NCBI RefSeq assembly: GCF_001412655.1
Contig: NZ_CP012996.1
Coordinates: forward strand, 1,302,001 to 1,366,000
Origin: Pedobacter sp. PACM 27299
GTDB lineage: Bacteria; Bacteroidota; Bacteroidia; Sphingobacteriales; Sphingobacteriaceae
Direction of reading: 5' to 3'
Length of the DNA: 64,000 nt
The position numbers were made by a program, and so were the translations under genes. Shown one piece after another: positions 42,942 to 53,612 of this stretch (the first letter of the stretch is position 1; each line of letters begins with the position of its first letter). The notes under the pieces are model-generated. The model saw only the letters and a list, made by a program, of their open reading frames with translations. It did not search any database and had not been told where the DNA came from.

Positions 42942-42968
42942 CTGATAGTAAAGTTCATTCATTTATTT

Positions 42969-43070
42969 ACTTATCCAGAAAGACTGAGGGAAAGGCCCTG
43001 TGATGTCTTAGCAACCTGTTATTTTAATAAGGTGCTAATTCCTGTCCGCCATTTGGCGGAAGAGATAAGT
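42969..43070 (+). ncRNA. SAM-I (S-box) riboswitch aptamer
   Basis: P1 is a perfect 7-bp helix (42969-42975 with 43064-43070). Between them are the conserved S-box segments: CTGAGGGAAAGGCCC (P2 region), TTAGCAACC, AGGTGCTAATTCC, and a GC-rich P4 hairpin (43044-43060). The order and sequence agree closely with the SAM-I consensus, so it binds S-adenosylmethionine. It sits about 100 bases upstream of a cysteine desulfurase-like gene. The expression platform is not clear: an imperfect hairpin at 43075-43098 and an AT-only hairpin at 43138-43157 follow, neither with a classic terminator. Confidence 0.92.
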
Positions 43071-43170
43071 TGTTAGAAAACCTGTATTTGGATTTTCTGG
43101 TAAACTCATCCATGCCTTATTCTTGTAAACTGATTAAGTAGATTTTTTTAAATCTATTAAAGCAATTCAC

Positions 43171-44340
43171 ATGAGAATTTATTTAGACAATGCCGCAACC
43201 ACACCGTTAAACAGAGAAGTATTCCTGGCAATGGAGCCCTATTTCTTTGAAAATTTTGGGAACCCATCCTCTTCGCATCACCATGGCAGGGGAGCGAAAG
43301 TAGCCATTGCCCATGCCCGGGGCATTATCGCAGACCTGCTCAATAGCAGTCCGGACCAGATCGTGTTTACTTCAGGAGGTTCCGAAGCGGATAATACGGC
43401 GATCCTTTCCGGGATTCGCAGCAATGGCATCCGACTTGCCATCACTTCTACTTTTGAGCACCATGCCGTACTGCATACCTTGCAAGCTTTAGAGAAAAGC
43501 GGAGAGATTAACCTGGTTTATCTTCAGCATGATGCAGCAGGTAATCTTTCTCTGCCTCATCTGGAAAAATTGCTGAGTACTAATGAAAAGGCATTTGTTT
43601 CTTTAATGCATGGAAATAATGAGATCGGAAACCTAAATGATATTTCCGAAATCGGAGAACTCTGTAAAAGATATGGCGCAGTTTTTCATTCGGATACCGT
43701 ACAGTCTATGGGACAGTACCGTTACGATACCCCTGATTTGAACGTAGATTTTCTGGTGGGTTCTGCACATAAATTCCATGGTCCGAAAGGCGTTGGCTTT
43801 TTATACAGGAGTACCAAACAGAGGCTTTATCCTTTGATTAACGGGGGGGCTCAGGAACAAAAGCAACGTGCAGGTACAGAAAATGTGACCGGCATTGTTG
43901 GATTGGCAAAAGCATTGGAAATCAGTTATAGAAACCGGGATGTTGCTCAGCGGCATTTGATCCAATTAAAAGAACGCCTGATCTATAAGCTAAAAGACAG
44001 GATTGTTGGAGTAACTTTTAATGGGAATTCTGCAAATACTATGCTCAGTTTAAATAGTGTGCTAAGTGTTTCTTTGCCTGATCCGCAGAATGGAATTGAC
44101 CTTTTAAATTATCTGGATCAACAGCAGATTTCAGTTTCTGGCGGCAGTGCCTGTAATAGTCATTCTGGTGCAGGTTCTCATGTGCTTACTGCTTTGGGAC
44201 CTCAGTTTGGCAGATCAACAGTTCGTTTTTCTTTTAGCCGATACAATACCGAGGAAGAGATTGATTATGCCCTGGAGAAACTGGCGAAATGTTATGTGGG
44301 GACAGGGAAAGGGGTTTATACAGCAGAATTTTCGCTTTAG
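43171..44340 (+). CDS. Cysteine desulfurase-like PLP enzyme (class V aminotransferase)
   Basis: 389 residues. NifS/IscS-type features: DNAATTPLN at the start, GNPSSSHHHGRGA, PLP-binding Lys in SAHKFHGPKG near residue 206, RAGTENVTGIVG, and the catalytic Cys in SGGSACNSHSG near residue 330. Cysteine desulfurases take sulfur from cysteine as persulfide for Fe-S clusters or thio-cofactors. No IscU or SufE gene adjoins it. A SAM-I riboswitch in its leader means it is expressed when SAM is low, which points to a role in sulfur/methionine metabolism rather than basal Fe-S assembly. Confidence 0.9.
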   Translation: MRIYLDNAATTPLNREVFLAMEPYFFENFGNPSSSHHHGRGAKVAIAHARGIIADLLNSSPDQIVFTSGGSEADNTAILSGIRSNGIRLAITSTFEHHAVLHTLQALEKSGEINLVYLQHDAAGNLSLPHLEKLLSTNEKAFVSLMHGNNEIGNLNDISEIGELCKRYGAVFHSDTVQSMGQYRYDTPDLNVDFLVGSAHKFHGPKGVGFLYRSTKQRLYPLINGGAQEQKQRAGTENVTGIVGLAKALEISYRNRDVAQRHLIQLKERLIYKLKDRIVGVTFNGNSANTMLSLNSVLSVSLPDPQNGIDLLNYLDQQQISVSGGSACNSHSGAGSHVLTALGPQFGRSTVRFSFSRYNTEEEIDYALEKLAKCYVGTGKGVYTAEFSL

Positions 44341-45665: not shown

Positions 45666-46037
45666 AAAAGACTTAGTATTATAAAAGTAAGTTTTCAGAT
45701 GGGATTTTGTTTTGATCCTGATCAATTTGACAATTTGCCGATGATTAGGTAGTAGAGGAAATCATGGACAGGTTTGGGGCAGGAGTTAGCGCAATAGGGA
45801 TCTGTTGCAGGTATCAATACATAGCTCAAATGATTTCGGACAGGGCTCGGATAATTCCGGATAGCTGCGTAATGCAAAGAAATCTAATAAAAATAACTCG
45901 CCTTAATTTGCTTATAATCAGTATTATTGGTTTTATTGCAATTAATTCCATAGAATTGGTAGTAAATTAATTAGCTGAAATACAGAAGGTTGCAAATCTT
46001 TTACTAATCTAATGTACTACTAAACCTATATACTTTA
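45666..46037. other. Intergenic region without supported gene
   Basis: About 370 bases between the phosphoesterase and the leader ORF. A 68-codon plus-strand ORF at 45764-45970 has no family resemblance, and no promoter box or terminator supports it. The right end becomes AT-rich and carries the promoter of the sulfur operon. Confidence 0.4.
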
Positions 46038-46045
46038 TATATTTG
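46038..46045 (+). promoter_or_regulatory. -7 promoter box of the sulfate-assimilation operon
   Basis: TATATTTG matches TAnnTTTG and ends four bases before the leader ORF ATG at 46050, so the leader is probably translated from a leaderless mRNA. No clear -33 element, which suggests an activator. Confidence 0.6.
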
Positions 46046-46049
46046 CTTT

Positions 46050-46106
46050 ATGAACCAAACAATTTACAACGGAAATCTAATGTTAACTCACTGCATGTGT
46101 GGGTAA
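46050..46106 (+). CDS. 18-residue Cys-Met-Cys leader peptide (attenuator)
   Basis: The ORF encodes MNQTIYNGNLMLTHCMCG and stop. Cys15 and Cys17 codons are at 46092-46094 and 46098-46100, with Met16 between. It lies between a promoter box and a strong intrinsic terminator, 90 bp upstream of the first gene of the sulfate-reduction operon. This is the layout of amino-acid leader attenuators, here for cysteine (and perhaps methionine): ribosome stalling on scarce Cys-tRNA would favour read-through. Too short for ORF finders. The mechanism is inferred. Confidence 0.72.
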   Translation: MNQTIYNGNLMLTHCMCG

Positions 46107-46136
46107 TGATTTCGGCTGTAAAGAGTAAAAATATTT

Positions 46137-46175
46137 AAAAGCTTCTTCAGTCTCCCCGACAGAAGAAGCTTTTTT
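46137..46175 (+). terminator. Attenuator terminator ahead of sulfite reductase gene
   Basis: Perfect 12-bp arms 46137-46148 and 46162-46173, 13-base loop, T6 tail ending 46175. It lies between the leader ORF and the first operon gene, so it must be bypassed for expression. A possible competing pairing joins TGTGGG at 46098-46103 with the C-rich loop (46153-46161). Confidence 0.88.
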
Positions 46176-46195
46176 CAAATAAGACCAAACGTACT

Positions 46196-48283
46196 ATGCA
46201 AAGTTTTAGAACAGAGTTAGAAAATCCTGTTGTTGAAAAGGATATTATAGATCTTGAGAAAAAGATCAGAGCTTTTCGCGAAGGAAAAATCCATGAGGAG
46301 AAATTTAGAAGCCTGCGCCTTGCCCGTGGTGTTTATGGACAAAGACAGCCTGGCGTACAAATGGTGCGTATTAAATTGCCTTTTGGAAAAGTAACCTTCA
46401 AACAACTGTTACGCATCGCCGATGTTTCTGACGAGTATGGCAGTGGAAACCTCCACTTAACCACTAGGCAGGACATTCAGATTCACTATGTGAGTTTAGA
46501 CAGGACCCCTCAATTGTGGGAGGAACTGGAACGCGATGATGTCACGATCCGTGAAGCTTGTGGTAATACGGTAAGAAACGTCACCTCCTCGCCGGATTCC
46601 GGGATCAATCCAAACGAATTGTTTGATGTTTCTCCTTATGCACATGCGTTTTTCACCTATTTCCTGCGTAACCCGATTTGTCAGGAAATGGGAAGAAAGA
46701 TTAAGTTTTCTTTCTCCTCGGATGAAAAAGATACAGCCTATAGCTATATCCATGACCTTGGTTTTATTCCGAAAATCAATGAAAAAGGAGAACGTGGTTT
46801 TAAAGTGATGCTGGGTGGTGGATTAGGTGCACAGCCTTTCCTGGCCAGTTTAGTACATGATTTCCTGCCGGAAGATCAGATTATTCCTTATGCAGAATCT
46901 GTATTAAGGGTGTTTGACCGTTACGGAGAACGTACCAACAGAAACAAAGCACGTCTTAAATATTTAGTACAGAAATTAGGATTAGAAGAGTTATTGAGAC
47001 TGATTGACGAAGAAAGAATCGCCAATAAATCAAAGTCTTTTAAAATTGATAGAGATGCCGTGCTTTCTCCGGAGCCTCCTGCTTTGCTGGAATATCCGGA
47101 ATTGGAAGTGTCAAAAACCTTGGAATACCAGCATTGGCGCGCTACAAACGTAATTGCTCAAAAACAAGAAGGTTTTTACGGCGTCTACGTAAAGGTGCCG
47201 GTAGGAGATATTAAAACCGACCGCGCCCGTAAATTGGTGGCAGGAATCAGTCCTTATGTGGCTGATGAAATCCGCGTTACTCAAAATCAAGGACTACTTT
47301 TAAAGTTTGTCAGAGCAGGTGCTTTACCAGCTTTATATGAGGCATTGAAGGCTGTAGATTTTGCGACTCCAGGATTTGACAGCATTGGTGATGTGACCAC
47401 CTGCCCGGGAACAGATACCTGCAACCTTGGGATTTCGAACAGTATGTCGCTTTCTGTAGCACTGGAAGAAGTGATCTATGAAGAGTTCCCGGAATTGATT
47501 TACGATAAAGACATTAAAATAAAAATTAGCGGATGTATGAATTCTTGTGGTCAGCATGGTCTGGCACACATTGGATTCCATGGCAGTTCCGTGAAAGCAA
47601 ACGGAAAAGTAGTACCTGCAGTACAGGTGATGCTGGGTGGCGGTACCGTTGGTGATGGCGCAGGACGAGTAGCGGAAAGGGTGATTAAAGCACCTTCTAA
47701 GCGTGCAACCGATGTGTTAAGAACGATATTAAACGATTTTAGTGCAAATCACCAGGAGGAAGAAAGTTTCCATGCTTATTATGACAGACAAGGCAAAGAT
47801 TATTTTTACCAGCTGTTAAAACCACTGGCGGATCTGAGCACCTTGAAAGAGGAAGAATATGTAGACTGGGGGCATGAAGAGATCTTTAATACGGCAATTG
47901 GTGTTGGAGAATGTGCAGGTGTAGTGATTGATTTAGTGGCTACTTTGCTATTGGAAGCAGAAGAGAAATTAGGTTGGGCAAAGGCTTCCTTTGAAGCAAA
48001 AGCTTGGTCTGATGCTATTTATCATACTTATGCAGTATTCGTAAACGCAGCAAAAGCACTGTTACTGGATAAAGCAGTCAACAGCAGTACACAGATCGGT
48101 GTGATCCGTGAGTTTGATACCCATTATGTGGAAACAGGAGAGTTTAAACTGAAAAGTACTTTCAATGAACTGGTGTTACAAATCAATAAGAATGAGCCTA
48201 CAGCAGAATTTGCTGCCGCTTACCTGGCTGATGTCACCGACTTTTTTAATCAGATCAATGCAAAAAGAGAGGAGCAAATCTAA
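46196..48283 (+). CDS. Siroheme sulfite reductase (NirA/Sir type) with C-terminal HEPN-like domain
   Basis: 695 residues. Two ferredoxin-like nitrite/sulfite reductase repeats and two 4Fe-4S/siroheme domains span ~1-545. The cluster ligands are Cys403, Cys409 (CPGTDTC), Cys447 and Cys451 (GCMNSCG). It reduces sulfite to sulfide with six electrons in the cytoplasm. Residues ~565-690 are an extra all-helical domain (LLLEAEEKLGWAKASFEAKAWSDAIYHTYAVFVNAAKALLLD) resembling HEPN domains, not present in typical Sir proteins. Context with CobA, SirC, CysH, CysD and CysN shows sulfite rather than nitrite is the substrate. It overlaps cobA by one base. Confidence 0.93.
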   Translation: MQSFRTELENPVVEKDIIDLEKKIRAFREGKIHEEKFRSLRLARGVYGQRQPGVQMVRIKLPFGKVTFKQLLRIADVSDEYGSGNLHLTTRQDIQIHYVSLDRTPQLWEELERDDVTIREACGNTVRNVTSSPDSGINPNELFDVSPYAHAFFTYFLRNPICQEMGRKIKFSFSSDEKDTAYSYIHDLGFIPKINEKGERGFKVMLGGGLGAQPFLASLVHDFLPEDQIIPYAESVLRVFDRYGERTNRNKARLKYLVQKLGLEELLRLIDEERIANKSKSFKIDRDAVLSPEPPALLEYPELEVSKTLEYQHWRATNVIAQKQEGFYGVYVKVPVGDIKTDRARKLVAGISPYVADEIRVTQNQGLLLKFVRAGALPALYEALKAVDFATPGFDSIGDVTTCPGTDTCNLGISNSMSLSVALEEVIYEEFPELIYDKDIKIKISGCMNSCGQHGLAHIGFHGSSVKANGKVVPAVQVMLGGGTVGDGAGRVAERVIKAPSKRATDVLRTILNDFSANHQEEESFHAYYDRQGKDYFYQLLKPLADLSTLKEEEYVDWGHEEIFNTAIGVGECAGVVIDLVATLLLEAEEKLGWAKASFEAKAWSDAIYHTYAVFVNAAKALLLDKAVNSSTQIGVIREFDTHYVETGEFKLKSTFNELVLQINKNEPTAEFAAAYLADVTDFFNQINAKREEQI

Positions 48284-49071
48284 TGAGTACTAAAAATATA
48301 AACAACAAAGAACCAAAGATTACTTTGGTAGGTGCCGGCCCAGGTGATCCTGAATTGATCACGATGAGAGGCGCAAATGCCTTGAAATCTGCCGATGTAG
48401 TATTGTATGATGCTTTAGTGAATGAAGGTGTATTGGATTATGCCAACCCTGACGCGATCAAAGTATATGTGGGCAAACGTTCTGGCGAACATTCTTATTC
48501 GCAGGATGCTGTGAATAAACTCATGATTGATTATGCCCTGAACTACGGTCACGTGGTACGCTTAAAAGGTGGTGATCCTTTTGTATTTGGCAGAGGCTAC
48601 GAAGAATTGGATTTTGCTGCGGGTTATAGTATTCCGGTCACAGTGATTCCAGGCTTATCAAGCTCTATTTCTGTTCCTGGTTTACAACAAATTCCCGTTA
48701 CTCACAGAGGATTAAGCGAAAGCTTTTGGGTGGTAACAGGTACCACGGCTTCTGGGAAAATCTCTAATGATTTATATGAAGCCGCAAGGTCTAAAGCTAC
48801 GGTAGTCGTATTGATGGGATTGGGGAAACTGAAAGAAATTGTAAAACTTTTCCAAAATGAAGGAAAAGGAAAACTTCCGGTTGCTGCGATTCAAAGCGGT
48901 TCGACACAAAATGAAAAATTGGCGATTGGCCTGGTAGATACGATTGTAGAATCAGTAGAAGAAAAAGGAATTGAAGCACCAGCATTGCTGATCTTTGGTG
49001 AAGTAGTGTCTTTACACCCTTCTTTTCAACCCATCAGAGAATTTTTCAATGCACTTAAAGAAGAACAATAA
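48283..49071 (+). CDS. cobA: Uroporphyrinogen-III C-methyltransferase
   Basis: 262 residues. SAM-dependent methylase motifs: LVGAGPGDPELITMRG, VVLYDALV, VYVGKRSGEHSYSQ, VVRLKGGDPFVFGRGYEE, and PVTHRGLS. It adds two methyl groups to uroporphyrinogen III, making precorrin-2 for siroheme. Its start overlaps the sulfite reductase stop (TAATG), and the next gene begins 5 bp after its stop, so cofactor and enzyme are made together. Confidence 0.95.
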   Translation: MSTKNINNKEPKITLVGAGPGDPELITMRGANALKSADVVLYDALVNEGVLDYANPDAIKVYVGKRSGEHSYSQDAVNKLMIDYALNYGHVVRLKGGDPFVFGRGYEELDFAAGYSIPVTVIPGLSSSISVPGLQQIPVTHRGLSESFWVVTGTTASGKISNDLYEAARSKATVVVLMGLGKLKEIVKLFQNEGKGKLPVAAIQSGSTQNEKLAIGLVDTIVESVEEKGIEAPALLIFGEVVSLHPSFQPIREFFNALKEEQ

Positions 49072-49076
49072 CTAAT

Positions 49077-50738
49077 ATGGAAGGCAATCAATTATTTCCT
49101 GTCTTCATTAAATTGAACACCATTCGCACAGTGCTGATTGGTGCAGGTCCGGTTGGACTGGAGAAATTAGCAGCCATATTATCAAATAGCCCTGAAGCTC
49201 GCATTAGGGTAATTGCAAAGGAGATTTTACCAGAATTCAGGGAATTGGCTGCTGCACATGAAGGGGTGATCATTCTCGAAAGAGAATTTATCACCGGAGA
49301 TCTGGATCATGCCGATCTGGTAGTGGCTGCAACAAATAATAATGCGTTAAACCAGCAGATCAGACTGGAAGCCGATCAGCGGAATCTGCTGGTGAACTTT
49401 GCGGATAAGCCTGACTTGTGTAACTTTTACCTGGGGTCGATCGTGAAAAAAGGAGACCTGAAAATTGCGATTTCTACCAATGGGAAATCACCAACGATTG
49501 CGAAACGTTTAAAAGAAGTGCTGAATGAAAACCTGCCGGAAGCACTGATTGATACTTTAGGAAACATGGAGGCCCTAAGAAATACTTTAAGTGGGGATTT
49601 CGCGGAGAAGGTGACCAGGTTGAATGAAGTGACCTCTATTTTAGTTGCGGAAAAAGGTGCAGCGAAAAATGGTGTTTCAAAAGAGAGTAAGGTCTTAAAT
49701 GATCAGGCGATTTCAAATGAAGCCGGGAACTTTATTGAAAGTCAATCGGCGGTAATTGATGTAATTTCAAATGAGCATACGGGAACAGGAAATGGTATAG
49801 TTTCAAATGAAACTCTGGTAGCCGAGAACAATGCGGTTCCTGAAAAGAACATAGATAAGGTTAAGAAAAACTTCAAATGGCTGATCTGGACCTCTATCGT
49901 GCTTTCTTTTGCTATAGTCATCACTGCTTTCTGGCATAAGGAACCTGAATTTCAGGCTTACCTGACGCATTTAGATCCTATGTTTTACTGGTTTCTGATT
50001 GGCGGCTTTGTATTTGCCATGATTGACGGTGCCATTGGGATGTCGTACGGGGTAACCTCCACTTCATTTTCTCTGGCAATGGGTGTGCCCCCGGCCTCAG
50101 CGAGTATGGGTGTCCATTTATCAGAAATTTTGAGTAACGGGATTGCCGGCTGGATGCATTACCGTTTTGGAAATGTAAACTGGAAGCTGTTCCGCATGCT
50201 GTTGATACCAGGGATTGTAGGGGCCGTAGTAGGCGCCTACCTGTTGTCGTCATTGGAGCACTATAATCATTATACGAAGCCCATCATATCAGTATATACC
50301 CTGATTCTTGGTGGTGTGATTCTTTCCAAAGCCTATAAAATCAACCGCAGGGTGAAAAACCCGAAAGGTAAAATCAAAAAGATCGGTCTTCTAGGCTTAT
50401 TTGGCGGTTTTATCGATGCTGTTGGTGGCGGTGGCTGGGGATCCATTGTTTTGTCCAGCTTAATCGCAGGAGGAAGAAACGCGCGTTTCTCTTTAGGAAC
50501 GGTGAAAATTACCAGGTTCTTTATCGCTCTGATGAGCTCCCTGACTTTTATCACCATGTTAAATGGTGCACATTGGGAAGCTGTTGGTGGTTTGGTGATT
50601 GGTAGTGCATTGGCTTCGCCGATTGCGGCAAGAGTATCCAACAAGATCTCTGTGAAAACAATTATGGTGTCAGTAGGTGTGTTGGTGGTATTGGTGAGCT
50701 TACGCAGCATCATCAACTTTATCCTTAAAGAATTTTAG
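49077..50738 (+). CDS. Precorrin-2 dehydrogenase (SirC/CysG-N) fused to TSUP transporter
   Basis: 553 residues. Residues 1-205 are a siroheme synthase N-terminal part: NAD-binding VLIGAGPVGLEKLAAIL, VVAATNNNALNQQI, and NLPEALIDTLGNMEALR, which oxidises precorrin-2 and inserts iron. A low-complexity acidic linker (~206-262, with several SNE repeats) leads to residues ~265-553, a TauE/SafE (TSUP) domain with about eight helices, VFAMIDGAIGMSYGVTSTSFSLAMG and GFIDAVGGGGWGSI being the two repeats. TSUP proteins move sulfite or related anions. Cofactor synthesis and anion transport are thus in one chain tethered to the membrane. Confidence 0.9.
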   Translation: MEGNQLFPVFIKLNTIRTVLIGAGPVGLEKLAAILSNSPEARIRVIAKEILPEFRELAAAHEGVIILEREFITGDLDHADLVVAATNNNALNQQIRLEADQRNLLVNFADKPDLCNFYLGSIVKKGDLKIAISTNGKSPTIAKRLKEVLNENLPEALIDTLGNMEALRNTLSGDFAEKVTRLNEVTSILVAEKGAAKNGVSKESKVLNDQAISNEAGNFIESQSAVIDVISNEHTGTGNGIVSNETLVAENNAVPEKNIDKVKKNFKWLIWTSIVLSFAIVITAFWHKEPEFQAYLTHLDPMFYWFLIGGFVFAMIDGAIGMSYGVTSTSFSLAMGVPPASASMGVHLSEILSNGIAGWMHYRFGNVNWKLFRMLLIPGIVGAVVGAYLLSSLEHYNHYTKPIISVYTLILGGVILSKAYKINRRVKNPKGKIKKIGLLGLFGGFIDAVGGGGWGSIVLSSLIAGGRNARFSLGTVKITRFFIALMSSLTFITMLNGAHWEAVGGLVIGSALASPIAARVSNKISVKTIMVSVGVLVVLVSLRSIINFILKEF

Positions 50739-50740
50739 TC

Positions 50741-51445
50741 ATGAAAGAAGATTTAACAGCAATAGCTGAACAAATAAAAGATAAAGATCCGGTAGAGGCC
50801 CTGCGTTATTTTGCAGCTGCTTATCCGGAGAAAATAGTATTCTCTACCAGTTTCGGCTGGGAAGATCAGGTGATTACACACCTGATTTTTGCAAATGATA
50901 TTCCCATTGAAGTGTTTACCCTGGAAACAGGCAGGCTATTCCCGGAAACATATTATGTATGGAACAGAACATTAGAGAATTATAAAAAACCGATCCTGGC
51001 CTATTATCCCCAAGCAGAAGCGCTCCAGGAAATGGTGAATGCGAAAGGACCAAATAGTTTTTATGAATCGGTAGATAATAGAAAAGAATGTTGTCATATT
51101 CGTAAGTTAGAGCCATTAAAAAGAGCGATTAGCGGTAAAGATTGCTGGATCACGGGCATCCGTTCTGAGCAATCTTTAAACCGTACAGATATGACCAATC
51201 TGGAATGGGATGAGCAAAATAACCTGCTGAAATTCCACCCTATATTTTACTGGTCACTGGAAGAAGTAAAGGCGTATATTAAGAAACATAACATCGTTTA
51301 TAATACCCTGCACGATAAAGGTTTTCCGAGCATCGGATGTGCTCCCTGTACCAGATCGGTGCAAGAAGGGGAGGATTTCAGAGCCGGACGCTGGTGGTGG
51401 GAAGATCAATCAAAGAAAGAATGTGGTTTACATGCCACTAAGTAA
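50741..51445 (+). CDS. cysH: Adenylyl-sulfate (APS) reductase
   Basis: 234 residues. The N-terminal ATP-PPase-like fold has STSFGWEDQV and LETGRLFPETY. Cys117-Cys118 (KECCHIRK) and Cys200/Cys203 (GCAPCTR) form the 4Fe-4S site that marks APS-type reductases. The catalytic Cys228 lies in ECGLH at the end. It reduces activated sulfate to sulfite with thioredoxin. The lack of an APS kinase (cysC) in the operon agrees with APS as substrate. The start is 2 bp after the transporter stop. Confidence 0.94.
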   Translation: MKEDLTAIAEQIKDKDPVEALRYFAAAYPEKIVFSTSFGWEDQVITHLIFANDIPIEVFTLETGRLFPETYYVWNRTLENYKKPILAYYPQAEALQEMVNAKGPNSFYESVDNRKECCHIRKLEPLKRAISGKDCWITGIRSEQSLNRTDMTNLEWDEQNNLLKFHPIFYWSLEEVKAYIKKHNIVYNTLHDKGFPSIGCAPCTRSVQEGEDFRAGRWWWEDQSKKECGLHATK

Positions 51446-51456
51446 AAGATAAGAAA

Positions 51457-52362
51457 ATGAGTAAGTATAATTTAGATTATTTAGACGAACTGGAAGCCGA
51501 AGCCATTCACATTTTACGTGAAGTGGCCGGGCAATTTGAAAAGCCAGCATTGCTATTCTCCGGAGGAAAAGACTCGATTACCCTGGTACGACTTGCCGAA
51601 AAAGCATTCCGCCCAGGAAAGTTTCCTTTCCCACTGGTACACATCGATACTGGACATAACTTCGAAGAAACCATTTCCTACCGTGATAAAATGGTGGAAC
51701 GCCTGGGTGAAAAACTCATCGTTGGTCATGTACAGGAGTCTATTGATCAAGGAAAAGTAGTAGAACAAACCGGAAAAAGTGCCAGCAGGAATTCCCTGCA
51801 AACGGTCACTTTACTGGACACGATTGCCAAACATGGTTTCGATGCCTGTATTGGTGGTGCACGCCGCGATGAAGAAAAAGCCAGGGCTAAAGAAAGGATT
51901 TTCTCTGTAAGGGATGAATTCGGACAGTGGGATCCTAAGCGCCAGCGCCCCGAACTCTGGAACATCTATAACGGTAAAATCCATAAAGGAGAAAATGTAC
52001 GCGTTTTCCCAATCAGTAACTGGACGGAACTGGATGTCTGGAACTATATCAAAAGAGAAAATATTGATCTTCCTTCTATCTATTTCGCACACCGCAGAGA
52101 TGTGATCACCAGAAATGGTCAGCTGATGGCCGCTTCGCCATTCCTGAATATGGATGCAGAGGATATCGTAGAAAATAAAATGGTTCGTTTCCGTACCGTA
52201 GGTGATATGAGCTGTACCGCAGCCGTAGCATCGGAAGCTGATCAGATCGAAGACATCATCAGTGAAATCAGTGCATCAAAAATTAGTGAACGTGGCGCCC
52301 GCATGGACGATAAGGTATCAGAAGCTGCTATGGAAGACCGCAAAAAAGGAGGGTATTTTTAA
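51457..52362 (+). CDS. cysD: Sulfate adenylyltransferase small subunit
   Basis: 301 residues with the PP-loop SGGKDS at 35-40 and conserved HIDTGHNFEETI, GGARRDEEKARAKER and DMSCTAAV. CysD makes APS from ATP and sulfate, with energy from GTP hydrolysis by CysN. It overlaps cysN by one base. Length and motifs are normal. Confidence 0.96.
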   Translation: MSKYNLDYLDELEAEAIHILREVAGQFEKPALLFSGGKDSITLVRLAEKAFRPGKFPFPLVHIDTGHNFEETISYRDKMVERLGEKLIVGHVQESIDQGKVVEQTGKSASRNSLQTVTLLDTIAKHGFDACIGGARRDEEKARAKERIFSVRDEFGQWDPKRQRPELWNIYNGKIHKGENVRVFPISNWTELDVWNYIKRENIDLPSIYFAHRRDVITRNGQLMAASPFLNMDAEDIVENKMVRFRTVGDMSCTAAVASEADQIEDIISEISASKISERGARMDDKVSEAAMEDRKKGGYF

Positions 52363-53612
52363 TGAATTTATTGAAATTTTTTACAGCAGGAAGTGTAGAC
52401 GACGGAAAGAGTACACTTATCGGAAGACTGCTTTACGATACAGATTCTATTTTGGCGGATCAATTGGAAGCCTTACAGCAATCTAACCGCAAAAATGACG
52501 ATGGTACCATTGATCTGGCCATTTTAACAGACGGTTTAAGAGCGGAAAGAGAACAGGGGATCACCATCGATGTGGCCTATAAATATTTCCAGACAGCGCA
52601 GCGTAAATTTATTATCGCCGATACCCCTGGTCATATTCAATATACCAGAAACATGGTTACCGGTGCTTCGACCGCTAAATTGGCCATTATTTTAATTGAT
52701 GCTAGAAATGGGGTCGTAGAACAAACGATCAGACATTCGTACCTGGTCTCTTTATTGGGAATCGAACATGTAGTGGTAGCCATCAATAAAATGGATATGG
52801 TGGATTATAGCGAAACGGTATTCGATGCGATCACTGAAAAGTATAAAACACTGGCCGAAGAATTGAAACTCAAAGCCGTAACTTTCATCCCTGTAAGTGC
52901 TTTAAAAGGCGATAATATCGTTCATGAGTCTCAAAATATGGTTTGGTACCAGGGACGTAGTCTCCTGCATTTCCTGGAAACAGTAGATGTTGAAGATAAA
53001 CAAAGTTATAACCTCGCCAGAATGCCGGTACAATGGGTAGTGAGGCCTCAAACGGATGCGCTTCATGATTACCGTGGTTATGCGGGCAGAATATTAAGTG
53101 GTTCATTTAAACTGAATGATAAAGTAACCGTATTGCCATCAGGAAGCAGTTCTACTATCGATAGGATCGAAATATTTGACCTCAGACCGGAAGAAGTGCA
53201 TGCCGGACAATCAGTTACGATTCACCTGAAGGACAATATCGACATCAGCAGGGGTGATGTTTTAGTCAATGCAGCTCATTTACCGCAAAACTCGAAGTTG
53301 ATTGAAACAGATGTTTGCTGGATGGATAGCCGCCCGCTTGACGAAAGTATCACTTACCTATTACAGCACAATAGCAAAGTCACAAAAGCAAAGATCAGCG
53401 AAATTATTTATAAGGTAGACATCAATACTTTAGAGAAGCAGGATGCAGTAGATTTCAAATTGAATGATATTGGCAGGATTTTAATTAAAACAGCTGATGA
53501 ATTGGCTTTTGATCTTTATACAGATAATAAGGCTAATGGTGCAGCAATCCTGATCGACAGCAGAACGAATTTAACGGTTGCTGCGCTGATGTTTAGAGCG
53601 GTTGCAGATTAA
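52362..53612 (+). CDS. cysN: Sulfate adenylyltransferase large subunit, GTPase
   Basis: 416 residues. GTPase motifs: GSVDDGKST at 10-18, REQGITIDVAY, DTPGH, and NKMD, followed by EF-Tu-like beta-barrel domains. It powers CysD. There is no fused CysC kinase domain, so the chain stops at the short form. It ends the sulfur operon; tandem hairpins follow. Confidence 0.95.
   Translation: MNLLKFFTAGSVDDGKSTLIGRLLYDTDSILADQLEALQQSNRKNDDGTIDLAILTDGLRAEREQGITIDVAYKYFQTAQRKFIIADTPGHIQYTRNMVTGASTAKLAIILIDARNGVVEQTIRHSYLVSLLGIEHVVVAINKMDMVDYSETVFDAITEKYKTLAEELKLKAVTFIPVSALKGDNIVHESQNMVWYQGRSLLHFLETVDVEDKQSYNLARMPVQWVVRPQTDALHDYRGYAGRILSGSFKLNDKVTVLPSGSSSTIDRIEIFDLRPEEVHAGQSVTIHLKDNIDISRGDVLVNAAHLPQNSKLIETDVCWMDSRPLDESITYLLQHNSKVTKAKISEIIYKVDINTLEKQDAVDFKLNDIGRILIKTADELAFDLYTDNKANGAAILIDSRTNLTVAALMFRAVAD

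Follow-up and report, generated by a model that had tools for sequence, protein, structure and literature searches.

Between a promoter-like box and a sulfite reductase-like gene of the soil bacterium Pedobacter sp. PACM 27299 lie a short open reading frame ending in cysteine codons and a T-tailed hairpin, and the question is whether these two elements together control the operon behind them. The first-pass annotation of the 64,000-nucleotide stretch analysed here (the window) had taken them for a candidate cysteine attenuator, and this reading is supported by the conservation of the ORF and its Cys codons and by the terminator and antiterminator pairings in relatives. We hold it to be highly probable that the element is a ribosome-mediated transcription attenuator which senses aminoacylated tRNA-Cys, possibly also its Met counterpart, and controls the sulfate-assimilation operon. 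The features are the following.

46017-46045, + strand: promoter block CTACTAAACCTATATACTTTATATATTTG, the 3' end of which is the -7 box TATATTTG (46038-46045); read from the sequence.
46050-46106, + strand: leader ORF MNQTIYNGNLMLTHCMCG with its stop codon, 18 codons, predicted to be leaderless (+1 = A of the AUG); from the sequence, and kept in relatives.
46058-46090, + strand: segment 1, in the 5' part of the ORF, which can base-pair with the region that contains segment 2 (candidate protector); from duplex energy and the minimum-free-energy fold.
46092-46100, + strand: putative regulatory codons Cys15-Met16-Cys17 (TGC ATG TGT); from the sequence and the Cys-to-antiterminator spacing in relatives.
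46114-46125, + strand: segment 2, the 5' strand of the antiterminator (GGCUG 46114-46118, AAGAG 46121-46125); from alignment and pairing.
46137-46175, + strand: intrinsic terminator, hairpin 46137-46173 and U6 46170-46175; from the fold and covariation.
46143-46152, + strand: segment 3, the 3' strand of the antiterminator, UUCUUCAGUC, overlapping the 5' arm of the terminator; from alignment and pairing.
46196-53612, + strand: presumed regulated operon for sulfate assimilation with six genes (sulfite reductase-like, uroporphyrinogen-III methyltransferase, siroheme-synthase N-terminal domain fusion, cysH, cysD, cysN); from ORFs and NCBIfam.

Direct reading of the sequence confirmed the box and, behind four bases (CTTT), the 18-codon ORF which starts with the ATG at 46050 and ends Cys-Met-Cys-Gly-stop, the two Cys codons being TGC at 46092-46094 and TGT at 46098-46100. 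The perfect 12-bp hairpin with T6 in front of the sulfite reductase gene was also correctly described: the hairpin at 46137-46173 has 12 uninterrupted outer pairs and an inner 3-bp stem (-17.9 kcal/mol), the T6 lies at 46170-46175 and the gene begins at 46196. The region 46050-46195 folds more stably than 200/200 dinucleotide shuffles (z -4.98). When up to 3 mismatches were allowed, the promoter block was found as a single copy in the 6.15-Mb genome, without any further copy.

Where transcription starts is suggested by a comparison with Flavobacterium psychrophilum, for which the promoter section of a published study places the -7 box at -12 to -5 (PMC9723704). Together with the four-nucleotide spacing this would make the A of the leader AUG the +1 position, and we therefore infer that transcription starts at the AUG and that ribosomes initiate on the leader in the manner of a leaderless mRNA. 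The box thus puts the predicted start at the ATG and not downstream of 46106, where it would have spoken against the attenuator. Counting the leader of the window and the 61 from named loci, 44 of 62 Cys leaders have exactly 4 nt between box and start codon. Leaderless mRNAs are rare in F. psychrophilum, 5.5% according to the corresponding part of that study (PMC9723704).

For the sulfite reductase-like protein several nitrite/sulfite reductase models of NCBIfam match, every one of them below its curated cut-off. In the third gene of the operon (49077-50738, + strand) the siroheme-synthase N-terminal domain (residues 7-177) is fused to a C-terminal region that is long and hydrophobic and, by eye, resembles a permease. 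Upstream, at 42968-43071 (+ strand), a SAM riboswitch (RF00162, 91.3 bits) precedes a cysteine desulfurase-like gene starting at 43171, so that two distinct sulfur-related RNA devices are neighbours at a distance of about 3 kb.

Is the leader ORF conserved? We compared 80 named loci with a gene for this protein, the best 80 of at least 560 matches, which come from Pedobacter, Mucilaginibacter, Parapedobacter, Olivibacter and less precisely named organisms; the named relatives nearest to the window's genome are Pedobacter species. To count as a leader, an ORF had to follow a -7-type box, be 10-40 codons long and contain one or more Cys; the box expression was chosen after viewing the sequences. 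Such an ORF is present in 61 of these 80 loci, and 4000 shuffles gave it in 9.1%. Clustered Cys codons, the expected regulatory codons of a ribosome-mediated attenuator in front of an operon for sulfate assimilation, occur in 48 of the 80 as against 0.8% of shuffles. The loci are related to each other; a chance ORF is excluded by these shuffles. Most of these 80 loci have therefore retained the ORF and its Cys codons, and the terminator stem pairs covary, as an alignment of relatives had been expected to reveal. The CxC ending expected along with them turned out to be confined to the nearest relatives, other leaders having CC, CCC, CM and so on. Cys codon usage is mixed (TGT 104, TGC 70), which indicates that the amino acid and not the DNA is what is kept. 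In 56 leaders in-frame ATG is found in 107/1147 cases, compared with 7/1091 and 4/1091 in the other frames, so the ORF is kept with in-frame Cys and Met codons. These 56 are the nonredundant ones of 69 (<85% identity), by which the relatedness of the leaders is only partly reduced.

An intrinsic terminator lies between the leader ORF and the first gene in 59 of the 61 named loci with a Cys ORF, that is in 59 of all 80. This bears on a first alternative, namely a real terminator that acts constitutively or answers to a protein or metabolite, with a uORF that is incidental or serves only the translation of the next gene. Some other regulation may indeed exist, since a similar promoter block is also seen at loci without a leader, and the SAM riboswitch 3 kb upstream could hint at control by a metabolite. 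With an incidental uORF, however, it is difficult to reconcile that most loci have either both uORF and terminator or neither: of the 80 named loci 19 lack a Cys ORF, and by our own reading a terminator follows the box in only 3 of those (L041, L051, L064), 3/19 as against 59/61. Cys codons are moreover far above chance and recur in a second family (see below), and no Rfam family above threshold matches the leader. We regard this alternative as very improbable and the Cys attenuator as the better account.

Several leaders look decayed. In L025 start codon and terminator are gone, L051 has lost its Cys codons, and L064 has lost the ORF with the terminator being kept. Among 30 genomes of 13 other genera of the same family, hand-picked out of 250, the leader is present in 9 and missing in 21; genus g2 has it in 0/8 genomes. 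On a FastTree tree of 111 sulfite reductases the presence or absence of the leader requires 13 changes of state, so that the leader looks like an old element with several losses. By eye, a block resembling CTACTA..CCTATATACTTTATATATTTG is seen upstream of the gene in many relatives, whether the leader is present or not. The promoter region of some relatives, for example L022 and L023, contains the palindrome TTCTATATAGAA, which could possibly make this region a repressor operator.

An attenuator also needs an alternative pairing that excludes the terminator. For this the first-pass annotation had considered the Cys17-Gly18 codon region together with the terminator loop. The relatives keep a different pairing; in the window its 5' segment begins downstream of the ORF, 10 nt from the first base of the stop codon. 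Seen by eye and then in the alignment, a GRCUG (Pedobacter group) or GGYUR (Mucilaginibacter group) complements CRGUC or YAGCC in the 5' arm of the terminator; in the window GGCUG 46114-46118 pairs with CAGUC 46148-46152 and AAGAG 46121-46125 with UUCUU 46143-46147. The motif was defined after looking and chosen for this very pairing. It is found in 17/17 leaders of the Pedobacter group and 14/19 of the Mucilaginibacter group, and all 5 core pairs are kept in 29 of the 31 leaders with the motif, swapping among G-C, A-U and G-U (30 distinct leaders).

The antiterminator is kept in two of the four clades tested. In the alignment of 13 sequences selected from the Mucilaginibacter group 88.9% of the cells pair (22-53% in slid controls), and the covariation score is matched by 0/500 shuffles. 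The alignment of 14 sequences selected from the Pedobacter group, the clade of the window, gives 91.4% pairing as against 38-54% in slid controls; letter shuffles show no separation here (223/500 as high), with 4 of the 10 pairs invariant. For the 19 Mucilaginibacter-group leaders the own terminator arm pairs better than swapped ones (0/5000 permutations as good), and in swaps between clades the own pairing is the better one for the window's clade and for Mucilaginibacter. In the P. agri-like group the own arm is no better than a foreign one (-8.4 own, -7.5 to -8.3 swapped), and the same holds for Parapedobacter (-11.7 own, -9.1 to -12.2 swapped). Shuffling single sequences of the first family, that of the window, gave p<0.05 for the antiterminator in only 9/57 cases (median p 0.17).

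The competition between these structures also has to be weighed against a translational device, in which a stalled ribosome would open up or mask the start region of the first gene and no premature termination takes place. Precedents come from mycobacteria: their Cys leaders are described without conserved terminator hairpins in the section of the paper devoted to them (PMC1262725), and a later paper uses the term translation attenuation for the mycobacterial mode in the part concerned (PMC13236596). In our leaders, by contrast, a T-tailed hairpin follows the uORF. Measured from the first base of the stop codon, it begins after 22-49 nt in the 56 nonredundant leaders, a set for which the hairpin was required for admission (59/61 named loci have it), and the antiterminator competes with just this hairpin. 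A purely translational device has accordingly little to recommend it in our estimation, and attenuation of transcription remains the preferred reading.

The spacing of the elements is informative as to what the leader responds to. In 16/17 Pedobacter-group leaders the antiterminator segment lies behind the stop codon, beginning 8-10 nt from its first base (3 nt in the remaining one); in 12 of the 14 Mucilaginibacter-group leaders with the motif it already begins 5 nt ahead of that base. The distance between stop codon and segment hence differs by group, whereas in 27/30 distinct leaders the segment follows a Cys codon at 21-23 nt, a count over leaders with the motif and hence outside the 5 of the Mucilaginibacter group that lack it. 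The constant is therefore the distance to the Cys codon. Since a ribosome covers about 12 nt beyond its A site, a ribosome standing at that Cys codon would leave the segment free and one at the stop codon would cover at least part of it. This geometry is what is expected for ribosome-mediated attenuation.

Such a layout would allow the following sequence of events. With ample Cys-tRNA the ribosome would get to the stop codon and cover segment 2, and the terminator would form. When Cys-tRNA is scarce, we infer that the ribosome would stall at Cys15 or Cys17, approximately 22 or 16 nt before segment 2, which would then be free to pair with segment 3, so that the terminator would be blocked and RNA polymerase could enter the operon. 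If the leader is not translated at all, segment 1 would pair with segment 2, making termination the default. This candidate protector duplex has an energy of -16.4 kcal/mol in the window as compared with a shuffled mean of -8.6 kcal/mol (p 0.01) and is present in the minimum-free-energy fold; p<=0.05 is reached in 18/56 leaders (KS p 3e-9), the rows being related. As the layout is kept in many relatives, a ribosome awaiting Cys probably switches on the operon.

Clusters of Cys are in general also thiol- and metal-binding motifs. The leader could accordingly be an arrest peptide, the nascent-chain thiols of which sense redox state, a metal or free cysteine, with the codons mattering only as a source of thiols; redox status is mentioned as a possible signal for mycobacterial Cys uORFs in the relevant passage of Shell et al. 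(PMC4633059). Three observations make such thiol sensing unlikely to a high degree. The last Cys is located 3 codons or less from the stop in 23/56 leaders and would, given the dimensions of the ribosome, still be inside it. The peptide around the cluster is highly variable, with runs of up to 9 Cys, as counting of codons predicts. Finally, the spacing discussed above is fixed to the Cys codon and not to the stop. We thus favor the sensing of charged tRNA-Cys.

The window leader has a Met codon between its two Cys codons, and Met is strikingly frequent beside the Cys cluster in both families. In the first family Met makes up 74/349 of the non-Cys residues within three codons of the Cys cluster and 33/662 elsewhere, mostly at positions -3 to -1 and +1; in the second family, f5, the numbers are 42/201 and 15/490. 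The share is hence 21% near the cluster versus 3-5% elsewhere in both families, and 52/56 peptides of the first family and 26/32 of f5 have a Met near the cluster; the peptides within a family are related, so that p values for this enrichment come out too small. The pattern suggests that the leaders may sense Cys and Met. Joint sensing would make sense because Cys feeds Met synthesis, and a leader for two amino acids has a precedent in the thr operon, where Thr and Ile are sensed. Internal start codons are an alternative account of the upstream Met, but not of the downstream Met.

Does the arrangement occur outside the family of the window? The matching gene is present in 17/118 genomes of a sample of the phylum, and scanning 15-19 kb around it in 9 genomes of the same class outside the first family yielded one genome, of family f5, with a leader of five successive Cys. 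Of the matches of the scan, those inspected singly were the sulfite-reductase leaders of the window and of L173 and a candidate in L184, the last of which was discarded as it runs antisense within a TonB-receptor-like gene. In f5 itself 26/80 genomes have the gene, and 21 of these 26 loci carry uORFs with 3-9 consecutive Cys codons and T-tailed hairpins, the hairpin being weak in L198 (-2.7) and missing in L209 under the stricter of two terminator rules. Of the 5 loci without a Cys run two (L201, L212) are at a contig end or have less than full flanks. The segment after the Cys codons complements the own terminator arm with p<=0.05 in 20/32 units (median p 0.027, KS p 6e-22); these 32 units come from the 21 loci with runs of at least 3 Cys, and the terminator rule was looser than in the locus survey. 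An antiterminator that uses the 5' arm of the terminator and is mutually exclusive with it is found both in Mucilaginibacter and in f5.

Two poly-Cys uORF-terminator units stand in series before the sulfite reductase gene in 11/21 f5 loci with Cys runs (11/26 overall). The loci with double units are:

L189, L191, L192, L193, L194, L195, L196, L200, L204, L205 and L208.

Between the paired Cys runs no TAnn[TC]TTG box is present (0/11 double loci); this box may not be the promoter of f5. Two attenuators in series could give a sharper or a graded response. No resemblance was seen between the leader sequences of f5 and of the first family, which may point to convergence. Tentatively, and with less than even confidence, we propose as an overall picture that in two Bacteroidia families the sulfite reductase operon is preceded by sulfur-amino-acid attenuators of apparently unrelated kinds, that the leaders would count Cys and Met and thus act as two-amino-acid sensors, often serial in one family, and that the Pedobacter leader would be read without a 5' UTR.

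Attenuators of the trp, his and thr type consist of a leader ORF with regulatory codons and of protector, antiterminator and terminator segments. The Pedobacter leader has counterparts of these, the protector as a candidate, and the sole Rfam match at E up to 1 is Phe_leader (RF01859), at 25.5 bits far from the gathering cut-off of 55. Leaderless polycysteine sORFs of mycobacteria have reportedly been treated by Canestrari et al. in 2020. With such sORFs, as characterized in the corresponding section of PMC4633059, our leader shares the Cys clusters near the ORF end and the location upstream of sulfur/cysteine genes; a leaderless start like theirs is predicted for it. For the Actinobacteria, a different phylum, Cys leaders were predicted in 2005; they too have Cys runs near the stop and lie upstream of cys operons, but the section in question describes them without conserved terminator hairpins and suggests Rho-dependent attenuation (PMC1262725), whereas an intrinsic terminator is present here. 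The uORFC-8-2 motif of the Rhodobacterales, for which terminator-type Cys attenuation has been predicted, is similar in its tandem Cys codons in a short uORF, its intrinsic terminator and the proposed ribosome-mediated attenuation, as far as the entry for this motif goes (PMC8632094). It differs in belonging to cysS (cysteinyl-tRNA synthetase) of Alphaproteobacteria, while the Pedobacter leader is predicted to be leaderless and precedes a sulfate-assimilation operon in Bacteroidota; it does not lie upstream of cysS in a member of the Rhodobacterales. Within the phylum, leader-peptide attenuation, the same general mechanism, has been suggested for amino-acid operons of F. psychrophilum, with hisG and pheA among the conserved structured 5' elements; the section dealing with them mentions no cysteine or sulfate operon (PMC9723704).

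In the open-licence literature searched we found no Cys attenuator in Bacteroidota, which does not prove that there is none. The mechanism is already known; within that literature, novelty seems to lie in the phylum and the operon, in a terminator joined to a predicted leaderless start, in double units placed in series and in the distribution of Met. Well-studied bacteria regulate their cysteine supply through proteins (CysB, CymR) or SAM riboswitches. In the present case control of the entire sulfate-assimilation pathway appears to rest with the ribosome, in a phylum of which little regulation has been mapped, through a device that is short, predicted to be leaderless and made of clear parts with a near-constant spacing of 22 nt. 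If this is true, three questions can be put to the test: the way in which RNA polymerase is coupled to a ribosome on a leaderless transcript, the possible sharpening of the response by serial attenuators, and the possible sensing of two amino acids by one leader.

Other loci of the window's genome were viewed by eye. No Cys leader is seen at cysS, and ilvD was dropped as a control leader; this gene appears to lie close behind another one. The region upstream of hisG (L215) has no clear T-tailed terminator by eye. It contains a short ORF, MNQILNHHLHLHHRLSAMYM when translated by eye, which with its five His codons is likely a His leader.
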